From the NCBI RefSeq assembly GCF_012849095.1, contig NZ_CP051680.1, positions 5,363,501 through 5,427,500 of the forward strand: 64,000 bases of DNA, given 5' to 3'. The notes beneath the pieces were generated by a model. It did not search any database. It was not told the origin of the DNA and saw only the letters and a program-made list of their open reading frames with translations. Both the position numbers and the translations under genes were made by a program. Origin of the DNA: Cohnella herbarum. Lineage in GTDB: Bacteria > Bacillota > Bacilli > Paenibacillales > Paenibacillaceae. Shown here one piece after another: positions 18,234-51,220 of the stretch (the stretch's first letter is position 1; each line of letters starts with the position of its first letter).

Positions 18234-18463
18234 TATACAATACTATACATTCGCGTATTTCCGGCCTTAACTTATTTAAACCGAAACGCCTGCTTCCCCG
18301 AATGAAGGGAAACGACGTTTCGACTTTGAGACAGGCATGCACTGGATGTCCGATCAAGCGAAGTCGAGGTTTGGAATCTAGCACCCGTCGATGGTATGCT
18401 ATCCAAAAGGTTCGTTAGCGCTCGTCATCCAGAACCCTACTATTATACGAGAAGAGGTCGAGC

Positions 18464-19579: not shown

Positions 19580-19608
19580 AGCAATTCCGCCAACCCAGCC
19601 GCCAGCCG

Positions 19609-35649: not shown

Positions 35650-37272
35650 TCATTCAATATCGTTCGACCTGATCGCCAATTGAAGCAGCAGCTTGGTTTC
35701 CGGGTCATCCAACCTTAAGCCTAGCTCGTTCTTGATCCGGTCGAGCCGGTAGTTGATCGTATTGTAGTGAAGGTACATCCGCTCGGCCGTTTCTTTCGCG
35801 TTGCAGTTGCAATCGAAGTACGTCCGAAGCGTATTCAATAGCGCCCCCTGCTGTTTGGCGTCCAATTCTAGCAAAGGATTCAAGTAAAGTCGCTGAAACT
35901 CTTCCATTTCGTCGGTTCCTTGCAGCCGATAGAGCAACAAGTAGACGCCAAGCTCGTTGTACCGAAGCGTCTCATCCTTCAGCCTGCAGACGCGCCTGAT
36001 GTCGGCGGCTCGTTTCGCATCGCGATAACTGCCGGACACCTCCGCTTGACGGCTAACCTCTCTGCCTAAGCACAACGATACCTGCTTCTCTTGAATCATC
36101 GGTCTCAAGATCGTCCATAAGTTCCCGGTCAGCTGTTGTCTAGCATGGAGTCCTCCGATCTCCTCGCTCCTCAGCGTAAATAGAACGACTAACTCCCCTT
36201 CCAGCACCGTCCACTTCAGATCGCTTCCGCGGGAATCGCTTTCCCAATTAAGCCGTTTCGCCAGCTCTTGCAGCGATTTGACCTCCGGCTTCCGCTCCCA
36301 GAACGACACGACCCCGGCTAAATAGACTGCGTCCTCCGCTAGCGGCCATCCGCAAGCTTCCGCGCGAAGCCTCAGATCGACCGTCGACACGATGCGCCCC
36401 GCCAGCCAATCTTGCAGAAACTGATCGAAATATTTGACCTCGATATTTTTCCTCGCCTGCATGTTGCTGATCTCGAATCCAAGCAACCGTCCCGCCCAGT
36501 TGATCGTAAGCGTATCGACCGCTCCGTATTCGGCCGAATATTCGAGAATCAACAAGAGGTACGAACGGACTTGTCCATCCGGTACCGTCGCGACATGAAC
36601 GCGAACGCTCCGTTCTCCGATCTGCAACACGTTCGTCTCCGGCGTCTGATCCTCGCGGAATTTAACCCATTCCGTTTCCTCAATGAGCTCGAACAGTTTC
36701 TCCGCATCCGGAGATCCCGTTCTGCGGTTATGAGGATCCAGCAGGATTACCGGATTGCGGATCATGACCTGCAAATGATTCAAATACGAGGAAAGCCCGT
36801 CCCCGTGTAGCAGCACGTGGGACAGGCGTTGAACGCGACCTTGGAGAATCGTAAGATCTTTCGATTCGGAGACGAGCACCCGCTCCATGACTTCGCGAAC
36901 GACATCCGAGAACGTCGTGCCCGGCGGCAGCTCGATTAGCGGCATGCCGTACCGGTTGGCGGCTTCGATCGCGGCGGCAGGCACTTCGTCGAAGAAACGT
37001 TTCGTCTTCACGCCGAGCGCTGCGACGCCCTTGCTCGCCAATTGCTCGATGAGCGGCACAAGCACTTCGGGGTCGTGCTTAAACGGATATCCCGTCGTCA
37101 TGAGCAGTTCGCCGGGCCGCACCCAGTCGATGACGTCGGGAACCTCCATTACGTTGATGCGGCTAATCAAGCTGTTTAAGCCCGCTTCGCCGCCTAGAAG
37201 AACGGCATCCTTGAATTGAGGAACATCGAACAAGGATTTGACCGTAAAGCCTTCTCTGATCGGGTCGTCCAT
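35650..37272 (-). CDS. PucR family transcriptional regulator
   Basis: 540 residues: an N-terminal PucR sensory domain (about 8-125, with VPDVIDWVRPGELLMTTGYP), a GGDEF-like CdaR middle domain (about 280-430) and a C-terminal helix-turn-helix (about 478-535, NCNAKETAERMYLHYNTINYR, then LDRIKNELGL). PucR of Bacillus controls purine degradation. Here it is last in a run with amidases and a BMP transporter, 156 bp after the isochorismatase-like gene, and probably senses the substrate or nitrogen status. The gap upstream is rich in GATGA repeats, and no clear promoter is seen. Confidence 0.9.
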   Translation of the reverse strand: MDDPIREGFTVKSLFDVPQFKDAVLLGGEAGLNSLISRINVMEVPDVIDWVRPGELLMTTGYPFKHDPEVLVPLIEQLASKGVAALGVKTKRFFDEVPAAAIEAANRYGMPLIELPPGTTFSDVVREVMERVLVSESKDLTILQGRVQRLSHVLLHGDGLSSYLNHLQVMIRNPVILLDPHNRRTGSPDAEKLFELIEETEWVKFREDQTPETNVLQIGERSVRVHVATVPDGQVRSYLLLILEYSAEYGAVDTLTINWAGRLLGFEISNMQARKNIEVKYFDQFLQDWLAGRIVSTVDLRLRAEACGWPLAEDAVYLAGVVSFWERKPEVKSLQELAKRLNWESDSRGSDLKWTVLEGELVVLFTLRSEEIGGLHARQQLTGNLWTILRPMIQEKQVSLCLGREVSRQAEVSGSYRDAKRAADIRRVCRLKDETLRYNELGVYLLLYRLQGTDEMEEFQRLYLNPLLELDAKQQGALLNTLRTYFDCNCNAKETAERMYLHYNTINYRLDRIKNELGLRLDDPETKLLLQLAIRSNDIE

Positions 37273-37428
37273 CGCCGCGCATTCCTTTCCCTGTAAAAGC
37301 TGTCCTTGTTGTCATCACCGGCACACCATCTGCATCGTTTCATCAATTTCACCGGCGCAATAATCTCATCATTTTCTCTTCTCATCTTCTTCATCGGCGC
37401 ATCATTTCCATCATTCATCGCCCTTAAA

Positions 37429-38100
37429 TTACCGCTCTATTACCGCAATAAGAGACTCCGCCCCCGACGTCCATCCGAAAATACCGCCCTGTTGCCGCAC
37501 CATATGAATAGCGGCTTGATGATCGCTTTGATCGAATGCGGCCGTCGCGTCTTCCAACACTAGACAGCGATACCCCCGATCGTTCGCCTCCCGCAGCGTC
37601 GTATGCACGCATACATGAGTCGTAACGCCGCACAGCACCAGAGACTCGATTCCGTTCCGTTCTAGCAAATGCTCTAGTTCCGTCTTGTAGAACGCGCCTT
37701 TGCCCGGCTTGTCGATAATCGCTTCGTCTTCAAGCGGCGCTAACTCCGCGACGATCGCGTGACCCTGCTCCCCGCGAATCAAGATTCGGCCCATCGGACC
37801 TTCGTCCCCGATTCCCGCTCCCATCCTCTTGCTCCGCTCGAGCTTAGCCGGCGGGCAATCGGACAGATCCGGCAGATGTCCTTCCCGCGTATGAACGATC
37901 AGGATACCTGCATCGCGGGCAACTTGAAGCAGCTTCTGAATGACGGGGATAATCGCTCGAGTAGGCGTGATGTCGTTGCCGAGCTTTTCCCCGAATCCGC
38001 CAGCCGAGCAGAAATCGTTCTGCATGTCGATGACGACTAGCGCCGTTCGTACCGGGTCAAAATCAAACGCATAAGGAAGAGCCTCCCTCACCGTCTTCAT
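37429..38100 (-). CDS. Isochorismatase-family cysteine hydrolase, biuret-hydrolase-like paralogue
   Basis: 223 residues with the catalytic triad in place: Asp25 (VVIDMQNDF), Lys131 (IIDKPGKGAF) and Cys164 (GVTTHVCVHTT), plus the cis-peptide before the Cys. It is clearly related to BiuH at 49702-50409 (shared HTREGH.PDLSD, RGE.G, DKPGKG, REANDRGY) but differs in the N-terminus and the loop ERSKRMGAGIGDEGPMG, so it may act on another amide or ureide such as a carbamoyl or ureido compound. It lies 37 bp after the cupin gene in the formamidase operon. Confidence 0.85.
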   Translation of the reverse strand: MKTVREALPYAFDFDPVRTALVVIDMQNDFCSAGGFGEKLGNDITPTRAIIPVIQKLLQVARDAGILIVHTREGHLPDLSDCPPAKLERSKRMGAGIGDEGPMGRILIRGEQGHAIVAELAPLEDEAIIDKPGKGAFYKTELEHLLERNGIESLVLCGVTTHVCVHTTLREANDRGYRCLVLEDATAAFDQSDHQAAIHMVRQQGGIFGWTSGAESLIAVIER

Positions 38101-38137
38101 CTGGCATCCCTCTCCCTCTCCCTCTTCCCTATCCTTC

Positions 38138-38578
38138 CTACTTTCCGCCTTGCAACTGCCGTTCGGTCGGAATCGGTACCTTCGTCGTTTCGAAGAATCG
38201 ATTACCAGGTGCTTGCTCCTCTACTGGTAGGAAGATGCTAATCTGCTCCGTCGGCACCGTATCGTCGTTGGCAACCGAATGGACGACTCCCGCAGGCACA
38301 AGAAACGTATCCCCTGCCGCGTAAGATTTCCACTCCCCGTTACATAGCAGCCGTACTTTGCCTACCGTAATATGAATGATCTCCGCTACATTATGATAAT
38401 GAGGAAGAACGGCGCCGCCGACGCCGATCTTCTCCCATAATACCGAGCTAGCCCGTACCCCCATCTCGTCCGCATCGGCAGCCGACAGAATCTCGCGATG
38501 ATAGAGGGCGACGTGATCCGGCATCGGCGACCATTCCATCGCTTCCGCCGTTTTCACCGTTGTGTGTTTTTCCGTCAT
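38138..38578 (-). CDS. Small cupin-domain protein
   Basis: 146 residues with one cupin barrel (about 50-130). Motif 1 is LPHYHNVAEIIHITVGK (His, His, Glu metal ligands) and motif 2 is GDTFLVPAGVVHSVAN, an exact fit to GxxxxxPxGxxHxxxN. A metal is likely bound. The function is unknown; single-cupin proteins in ureide clusters can be isomerases, hydrolases or sensors. It overlaps the formamidase gene by four bases, which ties it to that pathway. Confidence 0.8.
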   Translation of the reverse strand: MTEKHTTVKTAEAMEWSPMPDHVALYHREILSAADADEMGVRASSVLWEKIGVGGAVLPHYHNVAEIIHITVGKVRLLCNGEWKSYAAGDTFLVPAGVVHSVANDDTVPTEQISIFLPVEEQAPGNRFFETTKVPIPTERQLQGGK

Positions 38579-39597
38579 GATTCCCGTACCCTCCCTGCAT
38601 ATTTACGCACCGGCTTCGGATACCCTTCCGATGTCCCGTCTTTTACGACAACCTCGTCTTCCCAAGGCAATCTATAGCGCTCGTTCACTAAATCTTTCAT
38701 GTACGTGTACGGACAATCTCCCGCGCCGCCATCTACCGCAACGTACCCGCGGTGCGCAAACTGATACATATTGTTCTCCACGCCCCATAGGCGCCGCGCT
38801 TCGCGGACAAGCGACGGACGAACCTCTCCCGCGACGATCTCGTCCGGCCTGCCTCCGCCCGTAACGAGCGGTACGCCGTCGAAACCGACGATCATCGCTT
38901 CGCCCATCGAATCGAACGTGCCGTCGCTCCCGCTCATGCACACCGACGCGGTATACATGAGATTGCAAAAGGCGTTCGCTTGATTCGTGATTTGCCAAGA
39001 GTGGCGAATCGGCGCGGTGTATCCAGCCGTGCGAATCATAATATCCGCGCCGATATACGCGCACTCCCTAGCCATCTCCGGGAACATTCCATCGTGACAA
39101 ATAATAAGAGCGAGTTTACTTCCGTTAGGCCCGTCACATACCGGAATACCGAGATCTCCGGGCTCCCAAGGCTCAACCGGAACCCAAGGATGCAGCTTGC
39201 GATAATTCAGCTTGATCTCGCCCTGATCGTCAATAATAAGTCCCGTATTGTATGGGTTGCCGTTCGGGTTCGCCTCCATGATCGAAAAGCAACCCCAAAT
39301 CCGGTTGTCCCGGCAAGCTTGACGGAAAGCCTCAACCTCCAGACCGTCGACCCGGCACATAATGGCCGGATCCGTATTCATCGACAGGCCATGCAACGAG
39401 TATTCCGGGAACACGACGAGATCCATGTTACGCAATCCGCGCTTAGCCTTCGCCGTTAGTTCTACGATTCTCCGAGTCTGCTCCTCTAGCTGCGCCGGCG
39501 TCTCCACGACGGGAAGCTTCATTTGCACCAAACCGATGACAACGCCATCCGGGCTCTTGTTCAGCCCTCCCAGTCCACTCATAAGCGATTGCTCCAA
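38575..39597 (-). CDS. amiF: Formamidase (AmiF-type aliphatic amidase)
   Basis: Hydrolyses formamide to formate and ammonia. The 340 residues are of nitrilase-fold type, with the catalytic Glu65 (FPEYSLHG), Lys134 (NYRKLHPW) and Cys167 (ICHDG); these positions match Glu60, Lys133, Cys166 of the Helicobacter AmiF. The AmiF-like blocks SIMEANPNGNPYNTG, PWVPVEPWEPGDLGIPVC and ENNMYQFAHRGYVAVDGG are present. AmiE (acetamide, propionamide) is the main alternative. It lies 22 bp after the BMP lipoprotein gene and overlaps the cupin gene. Confidence 0.88.
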   Translation of the reverse strand: MEQSLMSGLGGLNKSPDGVVIGLVQMKLPVVETPAQLEEQTRRIVELTAKAKRGLRNMDLVVFPEYSLHGLSMNTDPAIMCRVDGLEVEAFRQACRDNRIWGCFSIMEANPNGNPYNTGLIIDDQGEIKLNYRKLHPWVPVEPWEPGDLGIPVCDGPNGSKLALIICHDGMFPEMARECAYIGADIMIRTAGYTAPIRHSWQITNQANAFCNLMYTASVCMSGSDGTFDSMGEAMIVGFDGVPLVTGGGRPDEIVAGEVRPSLVREARRLWGVENNMYQFAHRGYVAVDGGAGDCPYTYMKDLVNERYRLPWEDEVVVKDGTSEGYPKPVRKYAGRVRES

Positions 39598-39619
39598 TCC
39601 ATTTCGCGACTATGTCCCG

Positions 39620-40804
39620 TCATTTAGGAATGCTGCCGATAACGCCTTCTACGAGATAATCCGAACCTTCCAACGCCTCGACGGTCGGCGTTTCCCCTTC
39701 CGCGATCCGCACGGTTCCCGATTGATCTTTAACCGGACCGATGAACGGTTTCAACGTGCCGCCCAACAACTCGGCCTTCTTGTCCTCTACGAACTGAACG
39801 ACGTCCGCCGGAACCTTGGCGCCGAAGGAACCCATTTGCACGACGTTGTCCGCCAGCGTTCCGCGATACTTTCCGTCGTATTTACTGCCTTTAAATCCGC
39901 CTTCTTGCGCTGTTTTGACCATATCGACGAACAGGTCCGGCCAGTTCCATAACGAGCCCGTAATCCATCCGTTCGGAGCAAGCGAAGAAGCGTCCGCATG
40001 GTAGCCTACCGTCATCACGTCGCGGCGTTCCGCGGTTTCGATCACCGTCTTCATGCAATCTTGATGTAAGCTAAGCACGTCGATGCCGCTATCGATCAAC
40101 GAGTTGGTCGCATTCGCTTGTTGGCCCGGATCGCACCAGCTTCCCGTGAACACGACGGACGTCGTCGCTTCCGGATTAACCGATCTGGCACCGAGCGTAA
40201 AGGCGTTAACGTTAAGCAACACTTGAGGAATCGGAACGGAGACGATGTAACCGAGCTTACCTGTTTTGGACATTTTGCCTGCCGCTATCCCCGCAAGGTA
40301 TACCGGTTCCCAGATCGTGCCGAAGTACGTACCGACGTTGTTGGCCGTCTTCAATCCGCCTTGGTGGAAAAACACGACGTCCGGGTGGCGCTTGGCCACG
40401 TTAAGAGCCGGTTCCAGATGTCCGTACGAGGTCGGGAAAATGATTTTCGCGCCGTCTTTGATCATTTGCTCCATGACGCGTTCCGCTTCCGCCGTCTCCG
40501 GCACGTTCTCCGCGCGCAGCACCTTCATGTCGGGATAAGCTTTCTCCACCGCCACGCTTCCGAGATAAGCCGCTTGGTTATACCCGTAGTCGTCTTTCGT
40601 TCCGACGAAGATAAAGCCGATCGCGCTTCCTCCCGTTCCCATCTTGCTATCCTGCTCCGCGTTTGCCGTTGCCGAACCTTCCGGAGAGCCGCTTGCCGAG
40701 CCGTTGCTTTCGTTTCCTGGCTGACTGCAACCGGTGATCAACATAATAAGGGCCAAGGTGCCAAGAAAAAGACTTCTAGCTTTTCTTTTTACGATTTTGT
40801 TCAT
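39620..40804 (-). CDS. BMP family substrate-binding lipoprotein of the nitrogen operon
   Basis: 394 residues. The signal peptide ends in the lipobox LITGC (Cys26), and a Ser/Gly/Glu linker leads into a BMP-family binding fold: FIFVGTKDDYGYNQAAYLGS, FPTSYGHLEPALNVAKRHPD, TYFGTIWEPVYLAGIAAGKM, GSWCDPGQQANATNSLIDSG. It is only distantly like the nucleoside-binding protein at 30106, and the WCDP and WNWPD stretches suggest a different ligand, perhaps a ureide, purine base or amide. The ATG at 40804 is preceded by GGAGGG. It lies 96 bp after the second permease gene. Confidence 0.9.
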   Translation of the reverse strand: MNKIVKRKARSLFLGTLALIMLITGCSQPGNESNGSASGSPEGSATANAEQDSKMGTGGSAIGFIFVGTKDDYGYNQAAYLGSVAVEKAYPDMKVLRAENVPETAEAERVMEQMIKDGAKIIFPTSYGHLEPALNVAKRHPDVVFFHQGGLKTANNVGTYFGTIWEPVYLAGIAAGKMSKTGKLGYIVSVPIPQVLLNVNAFTLGARSVNPEATTSVVFTGSWCDPGQQANATNSLIDSGIDVLSLHQDCMKTVIETAERRDVMTVGYHADASSLAPNGWITGSLWNWPDLFVDMVKTAQEGGFKGSKYDGKYRGTLADNVVQMGSFGAKVPADVVQFVEDKKAELLGGTLKPFIGPVKDQSGTVRIAEGETPTVEALEGSDYLVEGVIGSIPK

Positions 40805-40900
40805 GATGGTTCCCTCCACTTTGTTTTTTCTATTTAGGTTAGTGCGTCATGCCATCGTCTCTTTGTGCCGGTTCGGCAGTTTTCTTCGCTTCTTCGGCAG

Positions 40901-41812
40901 TCATCCGCCCGCTTCCCCTGCGAACACCCTGCCTAGAGCCTCCGGCGTCTGACTCTTCTTCCTTCGCTCCACGATCAACAGAGCAAGCAACGTTAATAGA
41001 TAAGGAACCATGAACAGGAAAAACGGAGAAATCGCGAGCCCTTGCTGCTGAACGGTCAATTGCAACGCCTGCGCGGCTCCGAACAAGTAAGCTCCCAGCA
41101 TCGCTCTTGCCGGTTTCCATGAGGCGAAAATAACAAGAGCGACGGCGACTACACCCCGGCCTGCGGTCATATTCTCAACCCAGCTATGCGTATAAGCGAT
41201 CGATAACTGCGCGCCGCCGATTCCGGCCAAGAATCCGCCCGCCAATACCGCTAAATAACGAACGAGCTTAGGGTTCACGCCGCTGGCGAACAACACTTCC
41301 TCCCGTTCCCCGGCGGTTCTTAGCATAATGCCGACCCGGGTACGAAAGATCACGTACCACAAGAGAGGAACAAGCAAGATGGACAAGTAGGTCAACGGAT
41401 CATGGTTAAACAAAATCGGTCCGATGAACGGAATGTCCGACAACCCCGGAAGTGCAACGGGGTTAAAGCCGACGATCTGTTGACTGACGAAATCCCGTCC
41501 GAAGAACGCCGTCACCCCCATTCCGAAAAACATAATCGTAAGGCCGGTAGCCAATTGATTGGCTCCGCAGCTTAAGACGAGAAAAGCATGGATCGATGCG
41601 ATCAACAAACCGCATAGCCCTCCCGCCAATGCCCCGAGCCAAGGATTCCCGGTCCATACCGTCACCGCGAAGCCTCCTAACGCTCCCGCCAGCATCGAAC
41701 CTTCCGTACCGAGGTTGATGACCCCGGCTCTCTCGGATACGAGTTCGCCCTGACTTGCCAGCATAACCGACGTTCCGGACCGAATCGCTCCGGTCAAAAT
41801 ATCCGCAATCAT
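40901..41812 (-). CDS. BMP-type ABC transporter permease (second system)
   Basis: 303 residues, about eight membrane helices, with the BPD_transp_2 block SERAGVINLGTEGSMLAGALGG near 26-47. It overlaps the upstream permease gene by four bases. With the other permease it forms the membrane channel of the nitrogen-operon transporter. Confidence 0.88.
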   Translation of the reverse strand: MIADILTGAIRSGTSVMLASQGELVSERAGVINLGTEGSMLAGALGGFAVTVWTGNPWLGALAGGLCGLLIASIHAFLVLSCGANQLATGLTIMFFGMGVTAFFGRDFVSQQIVGFNPVALPGLSDIPFIGPILFNHDPLTYLSILLVPLLWYVIFRTRVGIMLRTAGEREEVLFASGVNPKLVRYLAVLAGGFLAGIGGAQLSIAYTHSWVENMTAGRGVVAVALVIFASWKPARAMLGAYLFGAAQALQLTVQQQGLAISPFFLFMVPYLLTLLALLIVERRKKSQTPEALGRVFAGEAGG

Positions 41813-42882
41813 CGCTTAGCCCACCTTCCGCTGCCGAGAATGAAGAACAGAACGAGCGCCATCAGAATGTTAACGGAGGAGGACGGCAATCCCGAGCTGA
41901 TCTCGAGCGTGTTCCCCGCAACGCTGATCATCCCGAGCAGGAACGCCGTTACGATCAGTCGCAAAGGTTTGTTCCACGCCATCATCGCGGCTAGAAAGCC
42001 GAGATACCCGAAGTTGGCTCCGGTAGAGGCGCGCAGCCTTCCTTCTATGCCGGCAATTTCAATCATCCCCGCTATGCCTGCCAGCATTCCTGCGGCAATG
42101 AGTACCCAGAAATACATCTTGTTGATGTTCATGCCGGCGCGCTCTGCCGCAAGCCGATTGCTGCCGAGCACTCGGATGCGGAATCCAAGTCGCGTCCTCG
42201 TTAAGACGTACCAGACGAGCACCGCAAGTACCAATGCGACAACGAAGCCGATGTGTAACCGAGTCCCGTTAATAATCGGAAGCCTAAGGGATGAAGCGAT
42301 CTCCGGGGAGAAAGGCCAGTTAAAGGACTCCTTGTCTTTCAACAGACCGTGTACGAAGAACCCGACGGTGAACGTGGCGACGTAGTTAAGCAGAACGCTC
42401 GTTATCGTTTCGTTCAGACGGCCTTTCACCTTCAATACGGCAACCAAGCCCGCCCAGACGGCTCCGCCTAACGCACCGGCGATCATCATGAGCGGAATGC
42501 CGAGCCACGCCGGAAAATCATTCAGATAAAATACCGCGAACCAAGTCGCGAATAATGCCCCGATGGCAAGCTGTCCTTCGCCTCCGACGTTTACCAAACC
42601 CGCTTTGGCCGGAAGGGCCGCCGCAAGACCCGTCAGAATGAACGGAGTGGCTTTTAACAACACTTCCCCGAACCCGTACAGATCGCCGAACGTGGATTTC
42701 ACCATCGAAACGTACAACTCGACCGGGTTAACTTCATAACAGAGCAAGAACAATCCATAAACGACGAACGGCGCGATCATAATTAAAGCTTGAATCGCCC
42801 AAGGCTTGACGCGGGCTAGAAAGGAATAACTTCCGGCGGACAACGCGATCGTATTCGTGCTTGTGCTCGCTTGTTGTTTCAC
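41809..42882 (-). CDS. BMP-type ABC transporter permease (second system)
   Basis: 357 residues, about ten membrane helices, with LPAKAGLVNVGGEGQLAIGALF near 90-111 and the coupling block RVLGSNRLAAERAGMNINKM near 235-254. Its start overlaps the ATPase stop (ATGA). The arrangement ATPase, permease, permease, binding protein differs from the first system, in which the binding protein comes first. Confidence 0.88.
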   Translation of the reverse strand: MKQQASTSTNTIALSAGSYSFLARVKPWAIQALIMIAPFVVYGLFLLCYEVNPVELYVSMVKSTFGDLYGFGEVLLKATPFILTGLAAALPAKAGLVNVGGEGQLAIGALFATWFAVFYLNDFPAWLGIPLMMIAGALGGAVWAGLVAVLKVKGRLNETITSVLLNYVATFTVGFFVHGLLKDKESFNWPFSPEIASSLRLPIINGTRLHIGFVVALVLAVLVWYVLTRTRLGFRIRVLGSNRLAAERAGMNINKMYFWVLIAAGMLAGIAGMIEIAGIEGRLRASTGANFGYLGFLAAMMAWNKPLRLIVTAFLLGMISVAGNTLEISSGLPSSSVNILMALVLFFILGSGRWAKR

Positions 42883-44411
42883 GCAGATTCTCCTTTCAAC
42901 ATGCGGTATCCGATTTCGGTAACGTCGGTTTCGGAAGGAAGATAGGGTCCGATGAGCCGCTTCCCGGACAAAACGACCAATTGGTCGGATAGCTTAAACA
43001 ATTCGTCCAAGTCTTCGGAAAATAAAATAATCGCTGTTCCCTGCTCGGCAAGCTCGATGAGATGCTGCTGGATCGTGCGCGTCGTCCCGATATCAAGCCC
43101 CCTGCTCGGATAACTGACGATCAAGATTTCCGGCTTGCGGATCAGCGCCCGCGAGAGCACCATCCGTTGCACGTTGCCGCCGGATAACGTATCCGCCCTC
43201 CGGTTGCCATCCGCGAGAGCAAGTGCTTTCGCTTCTTCGCTACCGTCTAGTTCGCCTTTCACTTCTTTCCAATCGATTCCGGCTCCTTTAGGTTTAAGCC
43301 GGATTCCGTCGAGCACCATATGCTCCATAATGGTAAATCCGGGGATGACCGACTCCTTGATCGGATCTTCCGAGACAAAGCTCACCCCCGCGTCCATGAA
43401 CGCTTTGGCGTTCGCTTGCATCTCTTTGCCGCCGATGGAGATCTGACCTGTAGTCAGCTTTCTTAATCCGAATAACACCTCCGCCAGCTCGCGCTGCCCG
43501 CTTCCGGATATTCCGGCGACCCCGATAATTTGACCTTTCGGCAATGTCAGACGAAGATCTCCGAGTACCGACTCGCCATGGTCTCCGCTAATCGTCCCGT
43601 TCGTAATCTGCAACGCGACTTCCGATTTTCTATCGCCATCGGCGCTCGGTTTGACGACCGGCTTTAATGTCTTGTCGCCCATCATGGCGGCGATTAGGGC
43701 GTCACCCGCCAAGCCCTCTTCGCGATTTGCCGTATACGTGATTTGCCCGCTTCTTAGCACGCTTACTCGATCCGCGCAGGCGAGCACCTCGTTAATCTTG
43801 TGCGTAATAAGCAGAATGCCGTAACCGTCTTGGCGGAGCAGGTCGAGCATCTTCAGGAAAGCCTCTACTTCTTGGGGCACTAATACGCTAGTTGGTTCAT
43901 CGAAAATAATGATTCGAGTTCCGGGAGCGAGAAGCACCTTCACGATTTCCAGCCTTTGCCGTTGACCGAGATCCAACTGCCAGACATAGGCGTCGGGATC
44001 GACCGCAAGCCCGTATTTAGCCGAAGTGTCCACGATCCGTTGACGAAGCTTCTTCCGGTTGAATCGCCATCCCGACTCTACCGCGAGCGCGATGTTATCC
44101 AATACCGTCAATGCCGGCACGACCCGGAAATCTTGAAACACCATTCCGATGCCCCTTGCTCGGGCTTTCGTCGGCGGATGAAGGGACACCCGTTCTCCGT
44201 CCATGAACACTTCGCCTTCGTCGGGCTCGTATACGCCGTAGAGCATTTTCATGAGCGTACTCTTCCCTGCCCCGTTTTCCCCTAGAATCGCATGGATCGT
44301 CCCCGGATTAACCTCCAAGTCTATGTTGCGGTTAGCGACGAGCGATCCGAATCGTTTGGTGAGTGCCACTGCTTTGAGAAGATAGGGAGCATGAACGTTG
44401 TCATTTTTCAT
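42879..44411 (-). CDS. BMP-type ABC transporter double ATP-binding protein (second system)
   Basis: 510 residues with two ABC domains: Walker A GENGAGKSTLMKMLYG near 42, Walker B IIIFDEPTSVLVP near 165, then the second domain with degenerate Walker A GISGSGQRELAE near 290, signature LSGGNVQRMVLSRALI and LIVSYPSRGLDIG. First gene of the operon running to pucR. AAGGGGG precedes the ATG, and a GlnR/TnrA box (44430-44446) lies 20-35 bases upstream of it. Confidence 0.92.
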   Translation of the reverse strand: MKNDNVHAPYLLKAVALTKRFGSLVANRNIDLEVNPGTIHAILGENGAGKSTLMKMLYGVYEPDEGEVFMDGERVSLHPPTKARARGIGMVFQDFRVVPALTVLDNIALAVESGWRFNRKKLRQRIVDTSAKYGLAVDPDAYVWQLDLGQRQRLEIVKVLLAPGTRIIIFDEPTSVLVPQEVEAFLKMLDLLRQDGYGILLITHKINEVLACADRVSVLRSGQITYTANREEGLAGDALIAAMMGDKTLKPVVKPSADGDRKSEVALQITNGTISGDHGESVLGDLRLTLPKGQIIGVAGISGSGQRELAEVLFGLRKLTTGQISIGGKEMQANAKAFMDAGVSFVSEDPIKESVIPGFTIMEHMVLDGIRLKPKGAGIDWKEVKGELDGSEEAKALALADGNRRADTLSGGNVQRMVLSRALIRKPEILIVSYPSRGLDIGTTRTIQQHLIELAEQGTAIILFSEDLDELFKLSDQLVVLSGKRLIGPYLPSETDVTEIGYRMLKGESA

Positions 44412-44429
44412 CTTGGTCCCCCTTTTGTA

Positions 44430-44446
44430 TGTTATATAACTTTACA
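44430..44446. promoter_or_regulatory. GlnR/TnrA box upstream of the formamidase/BMP-transporter operon
   Basis: TGTTATATAACTTTACA fits the GlnR/TnrA consensus TGTNA-N7-TNACA exactly. It lies 18 bp before the start codon, downstream of a -10-like TATAAT (minus strand, 44475-44480), a position expected for repression by GlnR under nitrogen excess. The TATAAT has no good -35, so the promoter is tentative. Confidence 0.65.
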
Positions 44447-44692
44447 TATATTTTTAATTCCCTTTGCTAATACGATTATATATCAGTTTTATGTCATTAT
44501 CTTTATACGATAAGAACAAAATATTGGACTATTTTCTGTGTATGAGTAACAAACATTACATATACATAACATTAAATTGGCATGATGAAGGAGGGAATTA
44601 AAACCCAAGGGGGGTGTTGTTAAGGAGGGATGAAGAGAGGATGTACCGGCCCCCATGGGCCTTTCGCCTTGAAGAAGGGGCCTGTATCCGTT

Positions 44693-47600
44693 TTAGAATT
44701 TCGCCTTTTTTACCATGAAAATGATTGTCGTGCCGCTACCGGGGGAACTGATAATCCGCAAACCTTGACCATATAACTGCTTAAGCCGCCGATTCGTATT
44801 GCGCAAGCCGATTCCCCGATCTTGGCCGCCATGGTCGTCCAACAACCGCCGCCGGGTGCTCTCGTCCATCCCCACGCCGTCGTCCTCGATTCGGACTTCC
44901 GCGCAATCCTCGTACTCGACGATTCGGATTCGGATCTTGCCGCCGCCAACGCGCTTCATAATGCCGTGTCGGACCGCGTTCTCGACGAGGGGCTGGATCG
45001 AAAGGGGCGGAACCGTTAAGTGAATACTTTCATCGACATCCCATTCCACTTGTAATCGATTCTCGAATCGTTCTTTCTCTATGTACAGGTAAGATCGAAC
45101 GAGATCCAACTCATGCCGCAAAGGCACGATCCGCTCCAAATTCCGCGGATCGAAGCTCGCCCGTAAATAATTGCCGAATACTTCGACCAACGTGCGCATC
45201 CTTACCGTATCCAGCTCGCTTAACGCGGCGATCGAAGTGAGCGTGTTAAACAGGAAATGCGGCTGGATTTGAGCTTGAAGCCATGCGGCTTCCATCCGTA
45301 ACCTTTCGCGGAATGATTTCTTGCCGTCCGTTAACGCCCGTACGCGGGATTTCAATTCCATAGCGTCCACCGGTTTAACTAAGTAATCGTTTGCCCCTGC
45401 TTGGAAGCCGGCTTCGATATCTTCCGGTTGACCCCGAGCGGTCAGAAGCAAAATCGGAAGTTCAGCTATTTTATAACGTTCGCGGATCGCGCGAGACAAT
45501 TCGAACCCCGACATTCGCGGCATCATGACGTCCGCGATGACCAGATCCCACTCTTTCGTCGCCAGTATAGCTATGGCTTCATTCCCGTTCTTCGCCTTGG
45601 TGATCTCGTAGCTTTCCATCGCGAGAACCTCTTCTAGGACGCGTAAATTCACCGGGTCGTCATCGACGACCAGAATATTCGCTATGTCCGCAGGATCCCG
45701 TTTGTAAAGTTCCGGACCCGAAGCCAGCAACGCCGCGGCGGTCTCTTTCATAACGTCCGGCATTACTAAAGCCTTCGCGGGAACTTCCTCCCGAGTAACT
45801 TCATCCTGCGGTACGTCCTCATCCGATATCGGTAGAGTAAAGGTAAACTCCGATCCTTCGTTCGGAGATGAAGTTACCGATATCGTGCCCCGATGTAACT
45901 CCACCAGTTGCTTGCAAATGCTCAGCCCTAGCCCAAGTCCGCTCACATCTCCGGCTTGAATCGGGCCGCGCCCCTGCTCGTAAGGCTCGAACAGGACTTG
46001 CTTCGTGTCCTCGTTCATGCCAATGCCGGTGTCCGACACCGCAACATAGGCTTGTCCATTGCGAAAGGATGCGTCGACCGCGATGTATCCTTCGTTCGTA
46101 AACTTCGCCGCGTTGTGCAGAAGGTTAAACAAGATTTGAACGAGGCGATTCTCGTCGGCGACCACGGGAGGGAAATCGTCCGGAACCCGATTGATCAATT
46201 GAATCGGCTTTCCTTCCGTCATAAACCTCACCATGTCCAGGACGCCCGAAACGACGCCTTGGACGTTGACCGCGCGAAGTTGCAGATTGATGCGGTTCTC
46301 TTTCAGCCTTGCGAGGTCGAGCAAATCGTTCAGCAACAACGACATTCTTTTGCCAACGGAGACCAATAGCTCCATGTTTTCGCGATTAGCGGTTTCGTCA
46401 TAGTTGCCGTTGCCTCTAAGCAGCGAATGGCCTATGTTCAGCATAGCGTGAAGCGGATTGCGCAATTCATGGGACGTTCTGGCCAGGAACTGGTCTTTCA
46501 GCCTATCTTCCTCCATCATTTTCATGGCATGCTTGACCGTTTGCTCGGATGTCCTAAGGTATCTCTTGAACCAGTACGATGCAAAAGCAACAAAAGCGGC
46601 GATCATATCCATCGGGTAAAAACCCATTTCCTGCCAAAACGATGCTCTGATGAGTCCCCAGATGATGTTAAACGTTACGGCGCTTACTCCCATCAAAATA
46701 AAGATCGTGTCTTTATTCCCTTTCGTCACGCTCCGGAAAGCGAGCACGGAAATGACCAAATAAGGGATCATGATGATGATAGTATGAAGAGCATCCATCC
46801 TCGTCAGCCAATTAACGGGCAAGAATAGAGCAGCCAACGAATATGCGACGCAGACTGTCGTATAGGCTCGCAAACCCCGCTTTCTCCCGCTTCCTGGCAT
46901 AAGATAACTCATGAATTGCATAAGAAATCCCGCAATCCCAAGATAGACGATATAAAAAATCCTATAGCTCCAGTCGTTGTCGATCGGAAACCACACGAGA
47001 AGCAGTTGACTATCGTCGATCAAGGTAGAGATCATCGCGCAAACGACAAGTCCGAAAAAATAAAGCAACCCACGCTGGCGGACTCCCATGAAATATAAAA
47101 TGACGGAATAGGCTGCATGTACCAATAAAATCAGACATAAGCTTATTTGCAGCCAGGAAGACATTTGCGCATTCTGACTAATCGAGATGCCGTCGCCGAA
47201 TACAATCGGCCCGAAGATTCCTCCCCCCAACCGGTCATCGAAATTCGCCACTTGAACGACGATCTCGATTTCCTCCCGATCAGATGCGAAGATTGCCGTG
47301 TAAGGAACGTTCCTCGCCGTATAGTCGTCCGCGCTTTCGCCCGTCTCGCCCGAACGCCCCAACATTTTCCCATTAACGAACAATTCCGATGACGAGGGGA
47401 TCATCGGTACCTTAATTCCGTATATTTGCTCCGCGTCGCCGTTAACCAACACTCGCAGCCGATAAGAGCCGTAACCGAACGGCGGTCCATTCCATTTTCC
47501 GGGCACCTGCAACATGGTTCTCTCCGTCGGGGACGGAAGCGCTCCGTTATTATCCATGATCAATTGATTCTGGTAAAACTCCCATTCGCCCCTCAGCGAG

Positions 47601-47764
47601 ATTAACCCTTCCGAATCGAGTTCCCGATCTCTCAGATCCGCGACACCTTGGACGGTCTGAGCTATATTCTGCGGAGTGAGATAAAATATCCAGACGAGCC
47701 GCACGCCAAGCAGAACTAATAAGAACGATATGAGGATGAGAACTACTCTTCTAGACGTTAGCAT
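44693..47764 (-). CDS. Hybrid sensor with two histidine-kinase modules and a receiver (7TMR-DISM type)
   Basis: 1023 residues from the ATG at 47764, chosen for the GGAG six bases upstream. Order: one membrane helix (5-27), a DISM-like extracytoplasmic domain (about 35-195), seven membrane helices (about 205-410), HisKA with SHELRNPLH (about 430-495), HATPase with GTG-type boxes SDTGIGM and GLGLGLSICKQL (about 535-650), a receiver (about 700-815) with phospho-Asp in VIADVMMPRMSG, then a LytS-type kinase core with QIQPHFLFNTL (about 845) and a second HATPase with DDGVGMDE and GIGLRNTNRRL (about 925-1015). No separate response regulator lies next to it. It lies between the biuret genes and the transporter operon and may sense a sugar or nitrogen compound outside the cell. 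The partner regulator is unknown. Confidence 0.88.
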   Translation of the reverse strand: MLTSRRVVLILISFLLVLLGVRLVWIFYLTPQNIAQTVQGVADLRDRELDSEGLISLRGEWEFYQNQLIMDNNGALPSPTERTMLQVPGKWNGPPFGYGSYRLRVLVNGDAEQIYGIKVPMIPSSSELFVNGKMLGRSGETGESADDYTARNVPYTAIFASDREEIEIVVQVANFDDRLGGGIFGPIVFGDGISISQNAQMSSWLQISLCLILLVHAAYSVILYFMGVRQRGLLYFFGLVVCAMISTLIDDSQLLLVWFPIDNDWSYRIFYIVYLGIAGFLMQFMSYLMPGSGRKRGLRAYTTVCVAYSLAALFLPVNWLTRMDALHTIIIMIPYLVISVLAFRSVTKGNKDTIFILMGVSAVTFNIIWGLIRASFWQEMGFYPMDMIAAFVAFASYWFKRYLRTSEQTVKHAMKMMEEDRLKDQFLARTSHELRNPLHAMLNIGHSLLRGNGNYDETANRENMELLVSVGKRMSLLLNDLLDLARLKENRINLQLRAVNVQGVVSGVLDMVRFMTEGKPIQLINRVPDDFPPVVADENRLVQILFNLLHNAAKFTNEGYIAVDASFRNGQAYVAVSDTGIGMNEDTKQVLFEPYEQGRGPIQAGDVSGLGLGLSICKQLVELHRGTISVTSSPNEGSEFTFTLPISDEDVPQDEVTREEVPAKALVMPDVMKETAAALLASGPELYKRDPADIANILVVDDDPVNLRVLEEVLAMESYEITKAKNGNEAIAILATKEWDLVIADVMMPRMSGFELSRAIRERYKIAELPILLLTARGQPEDIEAGFQAGANDYLVKPVDAMELKSRVRALTDGKKSFRERLRMEAAWLQAQIQPHFLFNTLTSIAALSELDTVRMRTLVEVFGNYLRASFDPRNLERIVPLRHELDLVRSYLYIEKERFENRLQVEWDVDESIHLTVPPLSIQPLVENAVRHGIMKRVGGGKIRIRIVEYEDCAEVRIEDDGVGMDESTRRRLLDDHGGQDRGIGLRNTNRRLKQLYGQGLRIISSPGSGTTIIFMVKKAKF

Positions 47765-47832
47765 ACGATTCTCCGTTCGGGCTCGACCTAGCTTGATCAA
47801 GCGTTACCCAAACTTTACCACAAAACAAATAA

Positions 47833-47860
47833 GACCGGATATCGGAACCCGAATCCGGTC
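47833..47860 (-). terminator. Terminator after atzF
   Basis: GACCGGAT (47833-47840) pairs with ATCCGGTC (47853-47860); the minus strand continues TTATTTGTTTT. It separates biuH-atzF from the sensor gene. Confidence 0.75.
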
Positions 47861-47937
47861 GATCGCTTTAAGGTAATTTGGGAGATTGGGGAACGATTTT
47901 GCCCGCATCCTTATCTAGCGCGCCTCACGCGGATCAT

Positions 47938-49698
47938 TCACTTTACTGATTTCCAGCCCCCATAGTCGGTGATATCCTCGGATCCTCTAGTCGAATAGGG
48001 TTCGCAGACGAACCCGGGAACTTCCGTTCCATCTTCTAGTTCGACCTTGCCTATCCCAAGAGGTGCCGGTATGTTAGCCACGAAATGCCCGAACTTATCG
48101 AGCGGCATTTCCCACACCTCAAGAGCAATGGATTTGCCGTCTTCGGGTCGTTTAACTAAGCCTGGCTTAGCCGGGTTGGTCGATAGCTTAAACATCCTGT
48201 ACTTTTCAACCGTTCTGTCTTCGCGTAAAAACCTTGCTCCGTATTGCAGCATCTGCGTCTCAAGTGCCAATCCCCTCATGTGTAAGCCGCAAACTGCCAC
48301 AAGCGTATGTTTAGGCGTTGGTTGCATCGTTGTTTTATGTCCTTCTCCGCTTACGAAGAACTGTGCCGCTCCAATCGCATAACCTTCGTTAGAAGCTAGA
48401 GAGAATATCGTAATTCCGAACGGCAGCTTCTCATCCGCAGCTTCCGCGGGTACGGCCACCCCGAACAAATCCAGCAGATTACAATGATTCGTATAGGTTC
48501 CCATTTCCGTATTCGTCTTAATGGGGTCATTGCGAACTTGCTCCCGCGTCCAGGTTCCACCCGCCGTCGGCATGATAAGCACCGCACCCTTCAACAGCTT
48601 GTTCGTCTCAAGCTTAATCGACTGAAGAGCATGCATGGCGCGGAACACCGATGCTCCATCGTATTTCGAAGCCGATCCCGAGCGCAATATTCTTTCCGTA
48701 ACCGGCAATACGCTGTTGGGATGCGCATCTATGAAGCTACCGAGACCCGCCCATCTTTCCTCGACGAACGGCCCTCCGTACAACAAGTTCGCCGCCTGGT
48801 GAAAACCGCGAACATCCACATACTCAATTGGAATCCTTAATTGCTCGAGACGTCGGACCGCCTTCTTCCACGCTTGTTCGTATTCACTTGCATAGGGTCC
48901 GTAAAAGTGTAGCGACCCTTCCGGCAATAACAACTTGCAAGGAATAGCCGCTTGAGGCAATGGCAGTTCCTTCGACCATGGATCCGACTCATCCGGTCCT
49001 CGTACGATGCGGTCGACTTCCAGCGCATCTTCCAGGCTATTCGTGAACGCCGTTACGCAATCCAAGCTTGCGCTTGCCGGCACAACTCCTCGGATCGGCC
49101 AAGAGCCAAGGCTGGGCTTATATCCGAATATCCCGTTTAACGATGCAGGAACGCGCCCTGAACCGGCCGTGTCCGTTCCCAGGGAGAACGCGACGTGTCC
49201 GCGGGCGACCGCCACTGCCGAACCGGAGCTAGAGCCTCCGCTAATAAGTTCGCCCCTTAAAGCGTTGTGCGTTTCGCCATAAGGACTTCTGACGCCTACA
49301 AGACCCGTCGCGAACTGGTCCATATTCGTCTTTCCGATCGGGATAGCCCCAGCCGCTATTAGTCTCTCGACGACCGTGGCGTTGTCCTTAGGCACATATT
49401 GATAATCCGGACATGCAGCCGTAGTCGGAATGCCCGCCCAATCGATGTTGTCTTTGATCCCGAACGGTATGCCCCATAGCGGACAGACGGACGGATTTAG
49501 TTCGGAGAGCCGATCGAGGTACGGGCGGATACGCTCCATGCGCGGCGGAGTAATCCATATGTTCTTGTCGGCGTCCTCTTCGGCGCGCCGAATGATTTCC
49601 GTTACGACTTCTTCCGGAGAGGTTTCACCGGATCGATAGGCGTTGCGCAATTGCTCAATGGACAATGGAGTAGATTGATCCTGCAATTGGAGTTTCAT
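47938..49698 (-). CDS. atzF: Allophanate hydrolase
   Basis: Splits allophanate into ammonia and CO2 (two ammonia per allophanate once N-carboxycarbamate is decarboxylated). The 586 residues comprise an amidase-signature domain (about 15-440) with Lys82 (FGIKDNI), cis-Ser156 in GGSSSGS and nucleophile Ser180 (TDTAGSGRVP), plus the C-terminal allophanate-hydrolase domain (about 465-580, with ALETQMLQYGARFL, MFKLSTNPAKPGL, APLGIGKVELEDG). That two-domain form is AtzF-like and lacks the biotin-dependent urea carboxylase subunits. It lies three bases after biuH, so biuret and then allophanate are degraded by one operon. GAGGCGG precedes the ATG. Confidence 0.92.
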   Translation of the reverse strand: MKLQLQDQSTPLSIEQLRNAYRSGETSPEEVVTEIIRRAEEDADKNIWITPPRMERIRPYLDRLSELNPSVCPLWGIPFGIKDNIDWAGIPTTAACPDYQYVPKDNATVVERLIAAGAIPIGKTNMDQFATGLVGVRSPYGETHNALRGELISGGSSSGSAVAVARGHVAFSLGTDTAGSGRVPASLNGIFGYKPSLGSWPIRGVVPASASLDCVTAFTNSLEDALEVDRIVRGPDESDPWSKELPLPQAAIPCKLLLPEGSLHFYGPYASEYEQAWKKAVRRLEQLRIPIEYVDVRGFHQAANLLYGGPFVEERWAGLGSFIDAHPNSVLPVTERILRSGSASKYDGASVFRAMHALQSIKLETNKLLKGAVLIMPTAGGTWTREQVRNDPIKTNTEMGTYTNHCNLLDLFGVAVPAEAADEKLPFGITIFSLASNEGYAIGAAQFFVSGEGHKTTMQPTPKHTLVAVCGLHMRGLALETQMLQYGARFLREDRTVEKYRMFKLSTNPAKPGLVKRPEDGKSIALEVWEMPLDKFGHFVANIPAPLGIGKVELEDGTEVPGFVCEPYSTRGSEDITDYGGWKSVK

Positions 49699-49701
49699 CG
49701 T

Positions 49702-50409
49702 TCATCCGCCTCTCTGCTCGCTGAGGGATAACGATGCAAGCGACTCCGCCACCTTAACCGAATCGGATACGCTACCGAACACCCCGCCTTGCATGGTCAC
49801 CATCTTAAGTGCGGCTGAATGGTTATCGGGATCCGTTGCGCCCGTACAGTCTTCTAAGATCAAACATTCGTAACCCCGATCGTTCGCTTCGCGCATGGTC
49901 GTATGCACGCACACATCGGTCGTAATTCCCGTTAAAATCAAGTTCTGAATTCCCCTCGTTCGTAGTACGAGATCGAGATCCGTCGCGTAGAAACTGCCTT
50001 TACCCGGTTTGTCGATAATGATCTCGCCGGATATCGGAGCTAGCTCTTCGATGATCTGCCAGCCGGGCTCGCCCCGAACGAGAATTCGTCCCGCCGGTCC
50101 CGGAGATCCGATCTCCGCTCCGATTTGTTTGCTGCGCCACCTCTTATTGTCCGGTAGATCGGATAAATCCGGACGATGACCTTCCCGAGTATGAATAATC
50201 GTGAAACCCGGAATCTCTCTCGTCAGCTTTAACAATCGCTTGATGGGTTCAATCGCCCGACGAGTTAGCGATAAATCGTATCCCATTCGGTCGACATAAC
50301 CCCCTTTGCCGCAAAAGTCGATTTGCATATCGATCACGATCAGAGCCGTATTATCGGCTCTCAGCTGGCCATTATAAGGGTACGCGTAAGGATTTGCTTC
50401 AATAAACAT
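49702..50409 (-). CDS. biuH: Biuret amidohydrolase
   Basis: Hydrolyses biuret to allophanate and ammonia. The 235-residue isochorismatase-fold enzyme has the triad Asp27 (VIDMQIDFCGKGG), Lys134 (IIDKPGKGSF) and Cys167 (GITTDVCVHTT). The stretches PYNGQLRADNTALIVIDMQ, YVDRMGYDLSLT, HTREGHRPDLSDLPDNKRWR and MQGGVFGSVSDS agree with the Rhizobium BiuH group as I recall it, not with nicotinamidases. Substrate assignment also rests on the atzF neighbour. No cyanuric-acid hydrolase (AtzD/Bar) is present here. AAAGGAG precedes the ATG, and a GlnR/TnrA box lies upstream. Confidence 0.9.
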   Translation of the reverse strand: MFIEANPYAYPYNGQLRADNTALIVIDMQIDFCGKGGYVDRMGYDLSLTRRAIEPIKRLLKLTREIPGFTIIHTREGHRPDLSDLPDNKRWRSKQIGAEIGSPGPAGRILVRGEPGWQIIEELAPISGEIIIDKPGKGSFYATDLDLVLRTRGIQNLILTGITTDVCVHTTMREANDRGYECLILEDCTGATDPDNHSAALKMVTMQGGVFGSVSDSVKVAESLASLSLSEQRGG

Positions 50410-50456
50410 CGTTCCCGCTCCTTTGCGTTATGATTATGTTATATATATCATTTATT

Positions 50457-50473
50457 TGTTATATTATATAACA
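50457..50473. promoter_or_regulatory. GlnR/TnrA box and promoter upstream of biuH
   Basis: TGTTATATTATATAACA is a perfect palindromic match to TGTNA-N7-TNACA. On the minus strand it includes a -10 TATAAT (50463-50468), with a possible -35 ATGACT 17 bp upstream. A site overlapping the -10 suggests GlnR repression in nitrogen excess. The transcript leader would be about 45 nt. Confidence 0.7.
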
Positions 50474-50600
50474 TCATTGATGAGGAGTCATTGTTTAAGG
50501 ATCATAATCAGAATCGAGCATTTTTGTGTTCTGATCATAGGTTTGATGAACGCAAAAAATACGACGAACCATAAATAGACCCTCTACATATTCCGTAGAA

Positions 50601-51076
50601 GGCCCGTTCTCATCCCACTCCCCATATGCAAAAAACCGATTCCTTTTCAGGAATCGGGCTCGTTTTTCTTATATGGCGGAGAGAGTGGGATTCGCTCCGT
50701 CTCTGCGTATTAGTGGCCTTCGGCACATTCACGCTCAATGCGACTATCACGCCGGGGCCTACGAACATGCCTTTTGGCATGTTCGCTTAACGGCCCGTTC
50801 TCATCCCACTCGCCATACGCAAAAAACCGATTCCTTTTCAGGAATCGGGCTCGTTTTTCTTATATGGCGGAGAGAGTGGGATTCGCTCCGTCTCTGCGTG
50901 TTAGTGGCCTTCGGCACATTCACGCTCAATGCGACTATCACGCCGGGGCCTACGAACATGCCTTTTGGCATATTCGCTTAACGGCCCGTTCTCATCCCAC
51001 TCGCCATATGCAAAAAACCGATTCCTTTTCAGGAATCGGGCTCGTTTTTCTTATATGGCGGAGAGAGTGGGATTCG
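50601..51076. repeat. Tandem 191-bp units containing the 3' end of tRNA-Ser and a terminator
   Basis: Two full units (50601-50791, 50792-50982) and a 94-bp partial unit (50983-51076) that runs into the real tRNA-Ser. The units differ at only a few positions. Each holds, on the minus strand, a 3' copy of the last 21 nt of tRNA-Ser including CCA, the CCGATTCCT/AGGAATCGG terminator, and an inverted-repeat element with the arms GGCGAGTGGGAT and ATCCCACTC..CGCC. A perfect hairpin GAACATGCC-TTTT-GGCATGTTC (50763-50784) lies inside. The leftmost end carries a related hairpin (50583-50602). The 90 bp to 50601 hold no gene. Confidence 0.8.
51018..51039 (-). terminator. tRNA-Ser terminator
   Basis: CCGATTCCT (51018-51026) pairs with AGGAATCGG (51031-51039); six T follow on the minus strand. 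Copies exist in the two tandem units upstream. Confidence 0.85.
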
Positions 51077-51146
51077 AACCCACGCACGCCTCGCGACGCC
51101 TAGTTGATTTCGAGTCAACCCCCTTGGGCCTCTTGGGTACCTCTCC
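51056..51146 (-). tRNA. tRNA-Ser (anticodon CGA)
   Basis: Acceptor 5' GGAGAGG pairs with 3' TCTCTCC, then discriminator G and encoded CCA. The anticodon stem GTTGA/TCAAC surrounds CTCGAAA, anticodon CGA, reading UCG. The T arm GTGGGTTCGAATCCCAC is perfect, and a long variable arm (GGCGTCGCGAGGCG) identifies a class II tRNA-Ser. A terminator follows. Confidence 0.95.
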
Positions 51147-51220
51147 GCAGCAAGAATAATAATATCAAATAATGGACGGACATGCAACTGGATCGTTCAT
51201 CCATATTTTCGCTCCGTTGT

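Follow-up and report, generated by a model that had tools for sequence, protein, structure and literature searches.

Triuret and biuret are nitrogen-rich products of urea and uric acid. In the description of triuret breakdown by Tassoulas et al (PMC7948467), the hydrolase TrtA and the cyanuric-acid ring hydrolase AtzD both yield carboxybiuret, TrtB is named as the carboxybiuret decarboxylase, and six positions (F35, N41, A134, E160, Y187 and I205 in TrtA) separate TrtA from the biuret hydrolase BiuH. Ammonia oxidisers are described as carrying trtA-biuH-atzF-trtB-bmpA-nupABC clusters, whose importer is called a nucleoside transporter (PMC12625717). Among BMP-type binding proteins, AtzT of the atrazine operon is reported to bind guanine and 2-hydroxyatrazine, with guanine held by Ser97, Glu165, Asn218, Asn220 and a Tyr45/Trp194 sandwich (PMC6834077), and 3S99 is an adenine-binding protein. 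We analysed a stretch of 64,000 nt (the window) from the Cohnella herbarum genome (8.52 Mb in two contigs), in which a minus-strand block encodes, in order of transcription, BiuH, the allophanate hydrolase AtzF, a sensor kinase, an ATP-binding cassette (ABC) importer (ATPase, two permeases and a BMP-type lipoprotein), a formamidase-like amidase, a cupin, a second isochorismatase-like hydrolase and a PucR regulator (Table 1). With a probability of about three in four, we regard this block as a triuret mineralisation pathway in a Bacillota version, with nitrogen control of the GlnR type and a specific regulator of the PucR type. A sequence-only reading of the same DNA had proposed a nitrogen-scavenging system for small amides or ureides; conserved operator boxes, the biuret enzymes and a binding pocket unlike that of solved purine/nucleoside relatives agree with this, and we narrow the proposal to triuret.

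In the pathway that we propose, the BMP-type ABC importer would take up triuret and/or biuret, and the second hydrolase, a TrtA-type protein with His at position 160, would convert triuret to 1-carboxybiuret and ammonia. Carboxybiuret would lose CO2 to give biuret, spontaneously or via the cupin, after which BiuH would turn biuret into allophanate and AtzF would release ammonia and CO2 from it. The formamidase-like amidase may act on some small amide related to these substrates, possibly formamide that the hydrolases release from formyl-capped ureides such as formylurea.

Each of the named genes was found as an intact minus-strand open frame where originally noted, and profile searches of the window proteins assigned them to the expected families. 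The lower part of the pathway, from biuret through allophanate to ammonia, stands as first read: BiuH passes its curated cut-off with the BiuH residue at 6/6 discriminating positions, and AtzF combines an amidase with an AH_C domain and passes its own model. The second hydrolase had been described as another BiuH-like enzyme, an assignment that we rejected, as it scores 301.9 against the NCBIfam BiuH model (cut-off 370) and has the BiuH residue at 0/6 positions. Its closest solved relative is 6XIX, the structure published for TrtA by Tassoulas et al (PMC7948467), and it has the TrtA residue at 4/6 positions (F35, N41, A134 and I205), with His160 and Phe187 at the other two (six-residue string FNAHFI). 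The catalytic Asp24, Lys129, Cys162 and Gln202 of TrtA are all kept (residues DFFNEKKATHCFQI at positions 24, 29, 35, 41, 72, 129, 132, 134, 158, 160, 162, 187, 202 and 205). This protein is most likely a TrtA variant acting on triuret, with a shifted substrate possible. Since it is TrtA-type, the likely entry compound is triuret, and not biuret itself or a compound leading to it, as had been written.

His160 is shared by 119 of the best 120 of 8000 matches (the window protein included), the remaining one being gapped there, and among the matches listed, the nearest named proteins belong to Cohnella and Paenibacillus. When 157 hydrolases were placed in a tree, 85 TrtA-type sequences grouped together (support 0.71). 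The 19 with His160 made up a single subclade (support 0.93) on the TrtA side of the tree, and its named members are all Bacillota except for one contig labelled Spirochaetales (L055; L-numbers denote compared loci and G-numbers compared genomes, G000 being the source genome). A contig profile search with the TrtA alignment covered the best 80 of 588 matches. Across 99 loci, a TrtA-type gene occurs together with BiuH in 49, of which 36 also have a BMP importer, and without BiuH in 32, of which 28 also have xanthine-permease-like genes, and the His160 and Glu160 branches are both found in these same two gene contexts. At several loci (L045 at 12394-21156, L052, L054, L056, L090, L182, L183 and an E. 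coli plasmid, L048), the TrtA-type hydrolase adjoins xanthine- or cytosine-permease-like genes and FdrA/DUF1116/carbamate kinase genes resembling AllFGHK, mostly also with DUF2877 and without BiuH or a full AtzF; L048 encodes a small protein that matches part of AtzF at 43%. These loci possibly serve ATP-yielding phosphorolysis of biuret made from triuret.

The absence of a cyanuric-acid ring hydrolase, also claimed from sequence, extends beyond the window: AtzD (PF09663) had no match in the whole source genome or in two relatives with TrtA-type genes, in a search that found it in G012, G017 and G036. In a set of 60 related genomes, used for association counts, all eight BiuH loci that lack a TrtA-type gene carry AtzD, AtzF, cupin, PucR and another ABC system (the two binding proteins checked are NMT1-type); the BiuH frame of one of the eight (L042) is broken into two pieces, and L184 is a ninth AtzD/BiuH locus without a TrtA-type gene. 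Thus, the first enzyme and the importer appear to be exchanged together while the rest is kept. Because the BiuH/AtzF/cupin/PucR core pairs either with TrtA and a BMP importer or with AtzD and another importer, this exchange is the best evidence on the ligand and points to triuret, biuret or a close ureide as the cargo of the BMP importer.

The binding protein itself is consistent with this assignment. Its closest solved structures are AtzT (39% identity over 334 aa) and 3S99 (36% over 333), and it is distant from the nucleoside-type protein at 30106 (19% over 303 aa, E 0.005), as had been noted. The accompanying remark that known BMP transporters serve nucleosides, not ureides, fails to take account of AtzT (PMC6834077) and the nitrifier trtA-biuH-atzF-bmp clusters (PMC12625717). 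From a sequence alignment to AtzT alone, the pocket reads Y-S-Y-V-Q165-N169-W-H-D in AtzT numbering: Y45, S97 and W194 are kept, and Q165, H218 and D220 take the place of E165, N218 and N220. Gln165 occurs in 41/44 binding proteins encoded within 12 kb of TrtA/BiuH-type genes, none of which has Arg139, as opposed to 1 of 41 proteins not near such genes (Glu165 in 32, Arg139 in 30), a comparison group drawn from one phylum (Bacillota stretches, 37 of 40 fetched) that includes paralogues from the source genome itself. The exceptions in ureide context are two second copies from Bradyrhizobium (L096, L119) and L057. Eight plasmid-borne proteins were added, and the three in ureide clusters have Gln165 while the five others do not; one of these five, beside an atzD-atzG-atzE-hpxZ-atzF operon (L195), has exactly the AtzT pocket. 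The smallest clade that contains both the window protein and those of Rhizobium comprises 49 proteins (support 0.85), of which four lack Gln165, and the nearest NCBIfam models for the importer clade are 'B6'. A clade with an altered purine pocket, unlike that of its solved purine/nucleoside relatives, is therefore supported, and by inference Gln, which unlike Glu both donates and accepts a hydrogen bond, would suit an -NH-CO- edge. In a phylum sample of 299 genomes, binding proteins of this type (E 1e-60 or better) were found in 76, TrtA/BiuH-type genes in 4 and the amidase in 1, the latter two being too few for association statistics.

The gene set recurs in relatives. Six genomes of the same genus (L026-L031) have the order biuH-atzF-ABC-permA-permB-binding protein-(amidase)-(cupin)-TrtA-type-pucR, and the arrangement is ABC-permA-permB-binding protein-(amidase)-biuH-cupin-TrtA-type-pucR in L032-L034, which represent three more families of the order, and in two named Paenibacillus (L050, L051). 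The large sensor kinase noted between the two units is present in the window and absent from 6/6 syntenic same-genus loci, five of which have 206-282 bp between atzF and the ABC gene and the sixth 1107 bp. It was consequently rejected as a member of the system and is probably a local insertion that splits an otherwise continuous block.

Two exact GlnR/TnrA-type boxes (TGTNAN7TNACA) were confirmed in the window, upstream of biuH and of the ABC gene. The match by itself is modest evidence: 0.38 boxes are expected in the window by chance and at least two occurred in 7/100 shuffles, one-mismatch boxes show no excess (5 versus 11.1 expected), and the whole genome has 62 exact boxes versus 50 for the reversed control, a weak enrichment. 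For this reason we dropped the box count as sufficient proof, and the argument rests on conservation. In 10/11 scanned syntenic loci (L026-L034, L050 and L051; the similar locus L057 lay outside the scan), exact boxes lie -5 to 168 bp from where biuH and/or the ABC gene is called to start, and L026, the remaining locus, has a box with one mismatch at each of the two positions. The biuH-upstream box is exact in L027-L030, and boxes upstream of the ABC gene lie at 4-30 and/or 141-168 bp in L030-L034, L050 and L051 (-5 in L031). At the AtzD-type loci L035-L042, a box near biuH was found in 3/8, and the scan of L053 and L056 found none. GlnR-type nitrogen control of the block, from an operator at a conserved promoter position, is thus supported.

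The cupin is a candidate carboxybiuret decarboxylase on account of its distribution. Of the 99 loci, 57 have BiuH and a carboxybiuret producer (TrtA-type or AtzD), and these carry either a cupin (35 loci, two cupin families counted together) or an AtzH-like protein (HpxZ; 15 loci), never both, with neither in 7. By comparison, among 10 BiuH loci for which no producer was counted (several of these lie on short contigs, and L080 has a cut TrtA-type gene), the cupin is found in 0 and HpxZ in 1, and each is found in 1 of the 32 TrtA-type loci without BiuH. The source genome gave no match to an AtzH-like protein, in a search for which the control genome was positive. By eye, the window cupin has HxH...E and a later His, which we take to be the metal-cupin pattern. 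Aukema 2020 is reportedly the paper on TrtB, and if TrtB itself is a cupin or an AtzH-like protein, this idea would be less new.

The amidase passes the formamidase model (556.9 versus 406) and keeps the catalytic Glu60, Lys133 and Cys166, the name formamidase being a family label that may not give the substrate of this subfamily. It is 70-93% identical to 25 of 26 other cluster-type sequences (two of them duplicates; Proteobacteria and Cyanobacteria included) and 65% identical to the remaining one, as opposed to 43-51% for four other formamidases, and at 33 positions, several of them near Glu60 in sequence, at least 90% of the 27 cluster-type sequences differ from all four. In a plasmid collection, 514 records match the amidase, and the 60 matches listed form two groups, at 68-74% and 37-45% identity. 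Records opened from the first group (P. oryzihabitans, C. freundii and E. hormaechei) have a BMP importer, two hydrolases and AtzF around the amidase; two Rhizobium plasmid records have the importer, BiuH, AtzD and a TrtA-type gene around it, and one further Rhizobium record is unannotated. In two second-group records, the amidase lies beside iron-uptake or urea-transport genes. Within the 60 genomes, the amidase (at least 72% identity) is found in 7/10 with a TrtA-type gene versus 0/50 without (Fisher 3e-7, relatedness uncorrected; one 38% match in G052 left out), lying away from the cluster in two of the seven (G038, G046).

TrtA is reported to be weakly active on formylurea, its second-best tested substrate at 0.3% of the triuret activity (PMC7948467, Table 2). 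As cleavage of formylurea by TrtA would leave formamide after CO2 loss, we propose that this amidase subfamily is tied to ureide clusters through formyl-capped ureides. A role as an obligatory partner was rejected, considering that the amidase is decayed in one syntenic locus and absent elsewhere. The decayed copy (L028, 6505-7089), which we counted as absent, lies between the binding protein and cupin genes as frame-shifted pieces with the middle missing. Two Citrobacter and Enterobacter plasmids typed as IncR (L187, L188) carry atzF-BMP-formamidase-hydrolase-ABC-hydrolase-GntR with IS1 on one side (L187) or both (L188), and given these plasmids and flanks the pathway is probably mobile.

Several observations weigh against the triuret pathway as we propose it. 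Two of the six TrtA-defining residues are changed (E160H and Y187F), so the substrate could have shifted, and pairwise identity does not tell TrtA from BiuH, as the protein is 53% identical to TrtA of Rhizobium and 54% to BiuH of the window. The exchange between TrtA and AtzD is not absolute, as AtzD lies inside the BMP cluster in Rhizobium (L047, L192) and L106, L117 and L120 have AtzD-like genes close to theirs; the importer might therefore carry cyanuric acid there too. The alternation of cupin and AtzH-like genes tracks lineage, so the loci are not independent, and contig ends cut some of them; moreover, the Bacillota Cupin_2 and Rhizobium Cupin_7 proteins are not detectably related (E 0.16). 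Both accessory enzymes are dispensable: L030 has no cupin, and the amidase, besides its decay in L028, is lacking from L027, L031 and further loci. As for the receptor, no ureide appears among the ligands tested for AtzT in the accessible part of that report (PMC6834077), and the Gln165/Asn169 pocket is not unique to ureide clusters, as a paralogue in the source genome has it beside cytosine-deaminase-like genes. This paralogue (L165, G000:C1:6637000-6652000), which is the single Gln165 protein of the comparison group, adjoins PucR and two cytosine-deaminase-like amidohydrolases and may be a pyrimidine importer.

Other explanations of the block were considered. The His160 branch could have shifted to another planar ureide, such as formylurea or formylbiuret, with the amidase as the next step and triuret at most a side substrate. 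E160 of TrtA is described as contacting a water that touches triuret, and formylurea ranks second among its tested substrates (PMC7948467, Table 2), which together with the confinement of the amidase to genomes with TrtA-type genes in the 60-genome set gives this explanation some footing. However, the His160 and Glu160 branches share the same two gene contexts, and several His160 clusters have no amidase in the cluster (L027, L031-L033 and L050), so we consider it unlikely. General scavenging, in which biuret, formamide and small amides are used and the second hydrolase is a redundant BiuH, would account for the genuine BiuH and AtzF, the formamidase match and the nitrogen-type boxes; it is quite unlikely considering that this hydrolase scores below the BiuH cut-off, lacks every one of the BiuH discriminating residues and belongs to a separate TrtA branch with its own linkage.

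A purine importer like AtzT, in an operon mixing purine uptake with ureide breakdown, would fit the closest solved structures, which are described as binding guanine (AtzT) and adenine (3S99) (PMC6834077). Yet Glu165, the guanine hydrogen-bonder of AtzT, is Gln in nearly all of the proteins near TrtA/BiuH-type genes and the operon has no purine enzyme, which makes this very unlikely. The product of the guanylurea hydrolase GuuH feeds AtzF. Guanylurea as the entry compound, with the second hydrolase GuuH-like, would be compatible with a published hydrolase tree that includes GuuH as well as TrtA and BiuH (PMC12625717), but the gene contexts found fit TrtA, and we give this explanation almost no weight. 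Triuret mineralisation remains the reading that we prefer.

Table 1 Features of the block and their positions in the window, in order of transcription.
Feature	Position	Strand	Evidence
GlnR/TnrA-type box upstream of biuH (start codon at 50409)	50457..50473		Exact motif
biuH, biuret hydrolase	49702..50409	-	NCBIfam BiuH 411.9 versus cut-off 370; residues YYSDTV
atzF, allophanate hydrolase with AH_C domain	47938..49698	-	TIGR02713 610.7 versus 511; PF21986
7TMR-DISM hybrid sensor kinase	44693..47800	-	PF07695, HisKA, HATPase_c, response regulator
GlnR/TnrA-type box upstream of importer operon	44430..44446		Exact motif
ABC importer ATPase	42879..44411	-	Open frame and family search
ABC importer permease A	41809..42882	-	Open frame and family search
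ABC importer permease B (BPD_transp_2)	40901..41812	-	Family search
BMP-type lipoprotein, ureide-cluster clade	39620..40819 (true start probably near 40804 rather than 40819)	-	PF02608; PDB matches AtzT and 3S99
Formamidase-like amidase, ureide-cluster subfamily	38575..39597	-	PRK13287 556.9 versus 406; E60/K133/C166 kept
Cupin_2 protein, candidate carboxybiuret decarboxylase	38138..38578	-	PF07883
TrtA-type hydrolase, His160 subclade	37429..38100	-	BiuH score 301.9, below 370; top PDB match TrtA 6XIX
PucR-family regulator	35650..37272	-	PF07905, PF13556; kept in syntenic loci

Upstream of the biuH promoter region, at 50587-51159 of the window, a 191 bp unit is present in three tandem copies (100, 95 and 66% identical to the first).

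With the triuret reading, a vague 'small amide' operon becomes a testable pathway, in which the importer ligand, the cupin and the amidase are the parts worth assaying, the latter two being proteins without an assigned job. It also suggests, as a hypothesis at the level of single residues, how ureides could be served by a family of purine receptors. More tentatively, and at less than even odds, we suggest that the whole BMP-importer clade labelled nucleoside/purine is dedicated to acyclic ureides and arose from receptors of the purine type, working with an amidase for formyl-capped ureides and a cupin as an unrecognised carboxybiuret decarboxylase, on a route for fragments from uric acid and nucleobase oxidation and not only for fertiliser impurities. 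The same tentative suggestion includes the receptor change, Glu165 to Gln and, relative to the adenine type, Arg139 to Val/Gln and Gly169 to Asn. If the triuret reading is right, nucleoside/purine labels on binding proteins in such clusters probably mark ureide receptors.

In the literature, searched mostly without subscription papers, no tie of formamidase or cupin to biuret or triuret breakdown was found among the matches listed: the one listed paper with both 'formamidase' and 'biuret' is a biosensor review, and the one with 'biuret' and 'cupin' is on seed proteins. The accessible text of the BiuH structure paper (PMC5806882) contains none of the words transporter, formamidase, cupin and operon.

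The block is a variant of a known pathway, considering the gene set of Rhizobium johnstonii and the nitrifier clusters in print. The Herbaspirillum TrtA pathway, as described, has the same chemistry and hydrolase branch, with TrtA alongside BiuH and AtzF; its TrtA has E160/Y187 where the Cohnella protein has H160/F187 (PMC7948467). The ammonia-oxidiser clusters likewise place TrtA, BiuH and AtzF beside a BMP importer, and differ in that neither 'formamid' nor 'cupin' occurs in the main text of that paper (PMC12625717). AtzT, from the atrazine operon of Pseudomonas ADP, resembles the window protein as a BMP-type receptor with the Tyr/Trp sandwich and Ser97, and differs at Glu165, Asn218 and Asn220, which are Gln, His and Asp here (PMC6834077). 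The AtzD loci of relatives (L035-L042 and L184) share BiuH, AtzF, cupin and PucR, with AtzD and an NMT1-type importer (two checked) in place of TrtA and the BMP importer. The combination of genes is not special to this genome: pRL10 of R. johnstonii 3841 (L192), the source of the crystallised BiuH, has BMP-formamidase-BiuH-AtzD-ABC-TrtA-type-cupin (the same order as in R. leguminosarum, L047), with the same importer type and the Gln165 pocket. Identities between the window and L047 are 73% for the amidase, 73% for BiuH, 53% for the TrtA-type hydrolase and 46% for the binding protein. The Rhizobium cluster differs in carrying AtzD and a GntR regulator, with AtzF missing from the stretch shown, whereas the Cohnella block has AtzF inside, a PucR regulator, GlnR-type boxes, a cupin of the other family and a His160 hydrolase.

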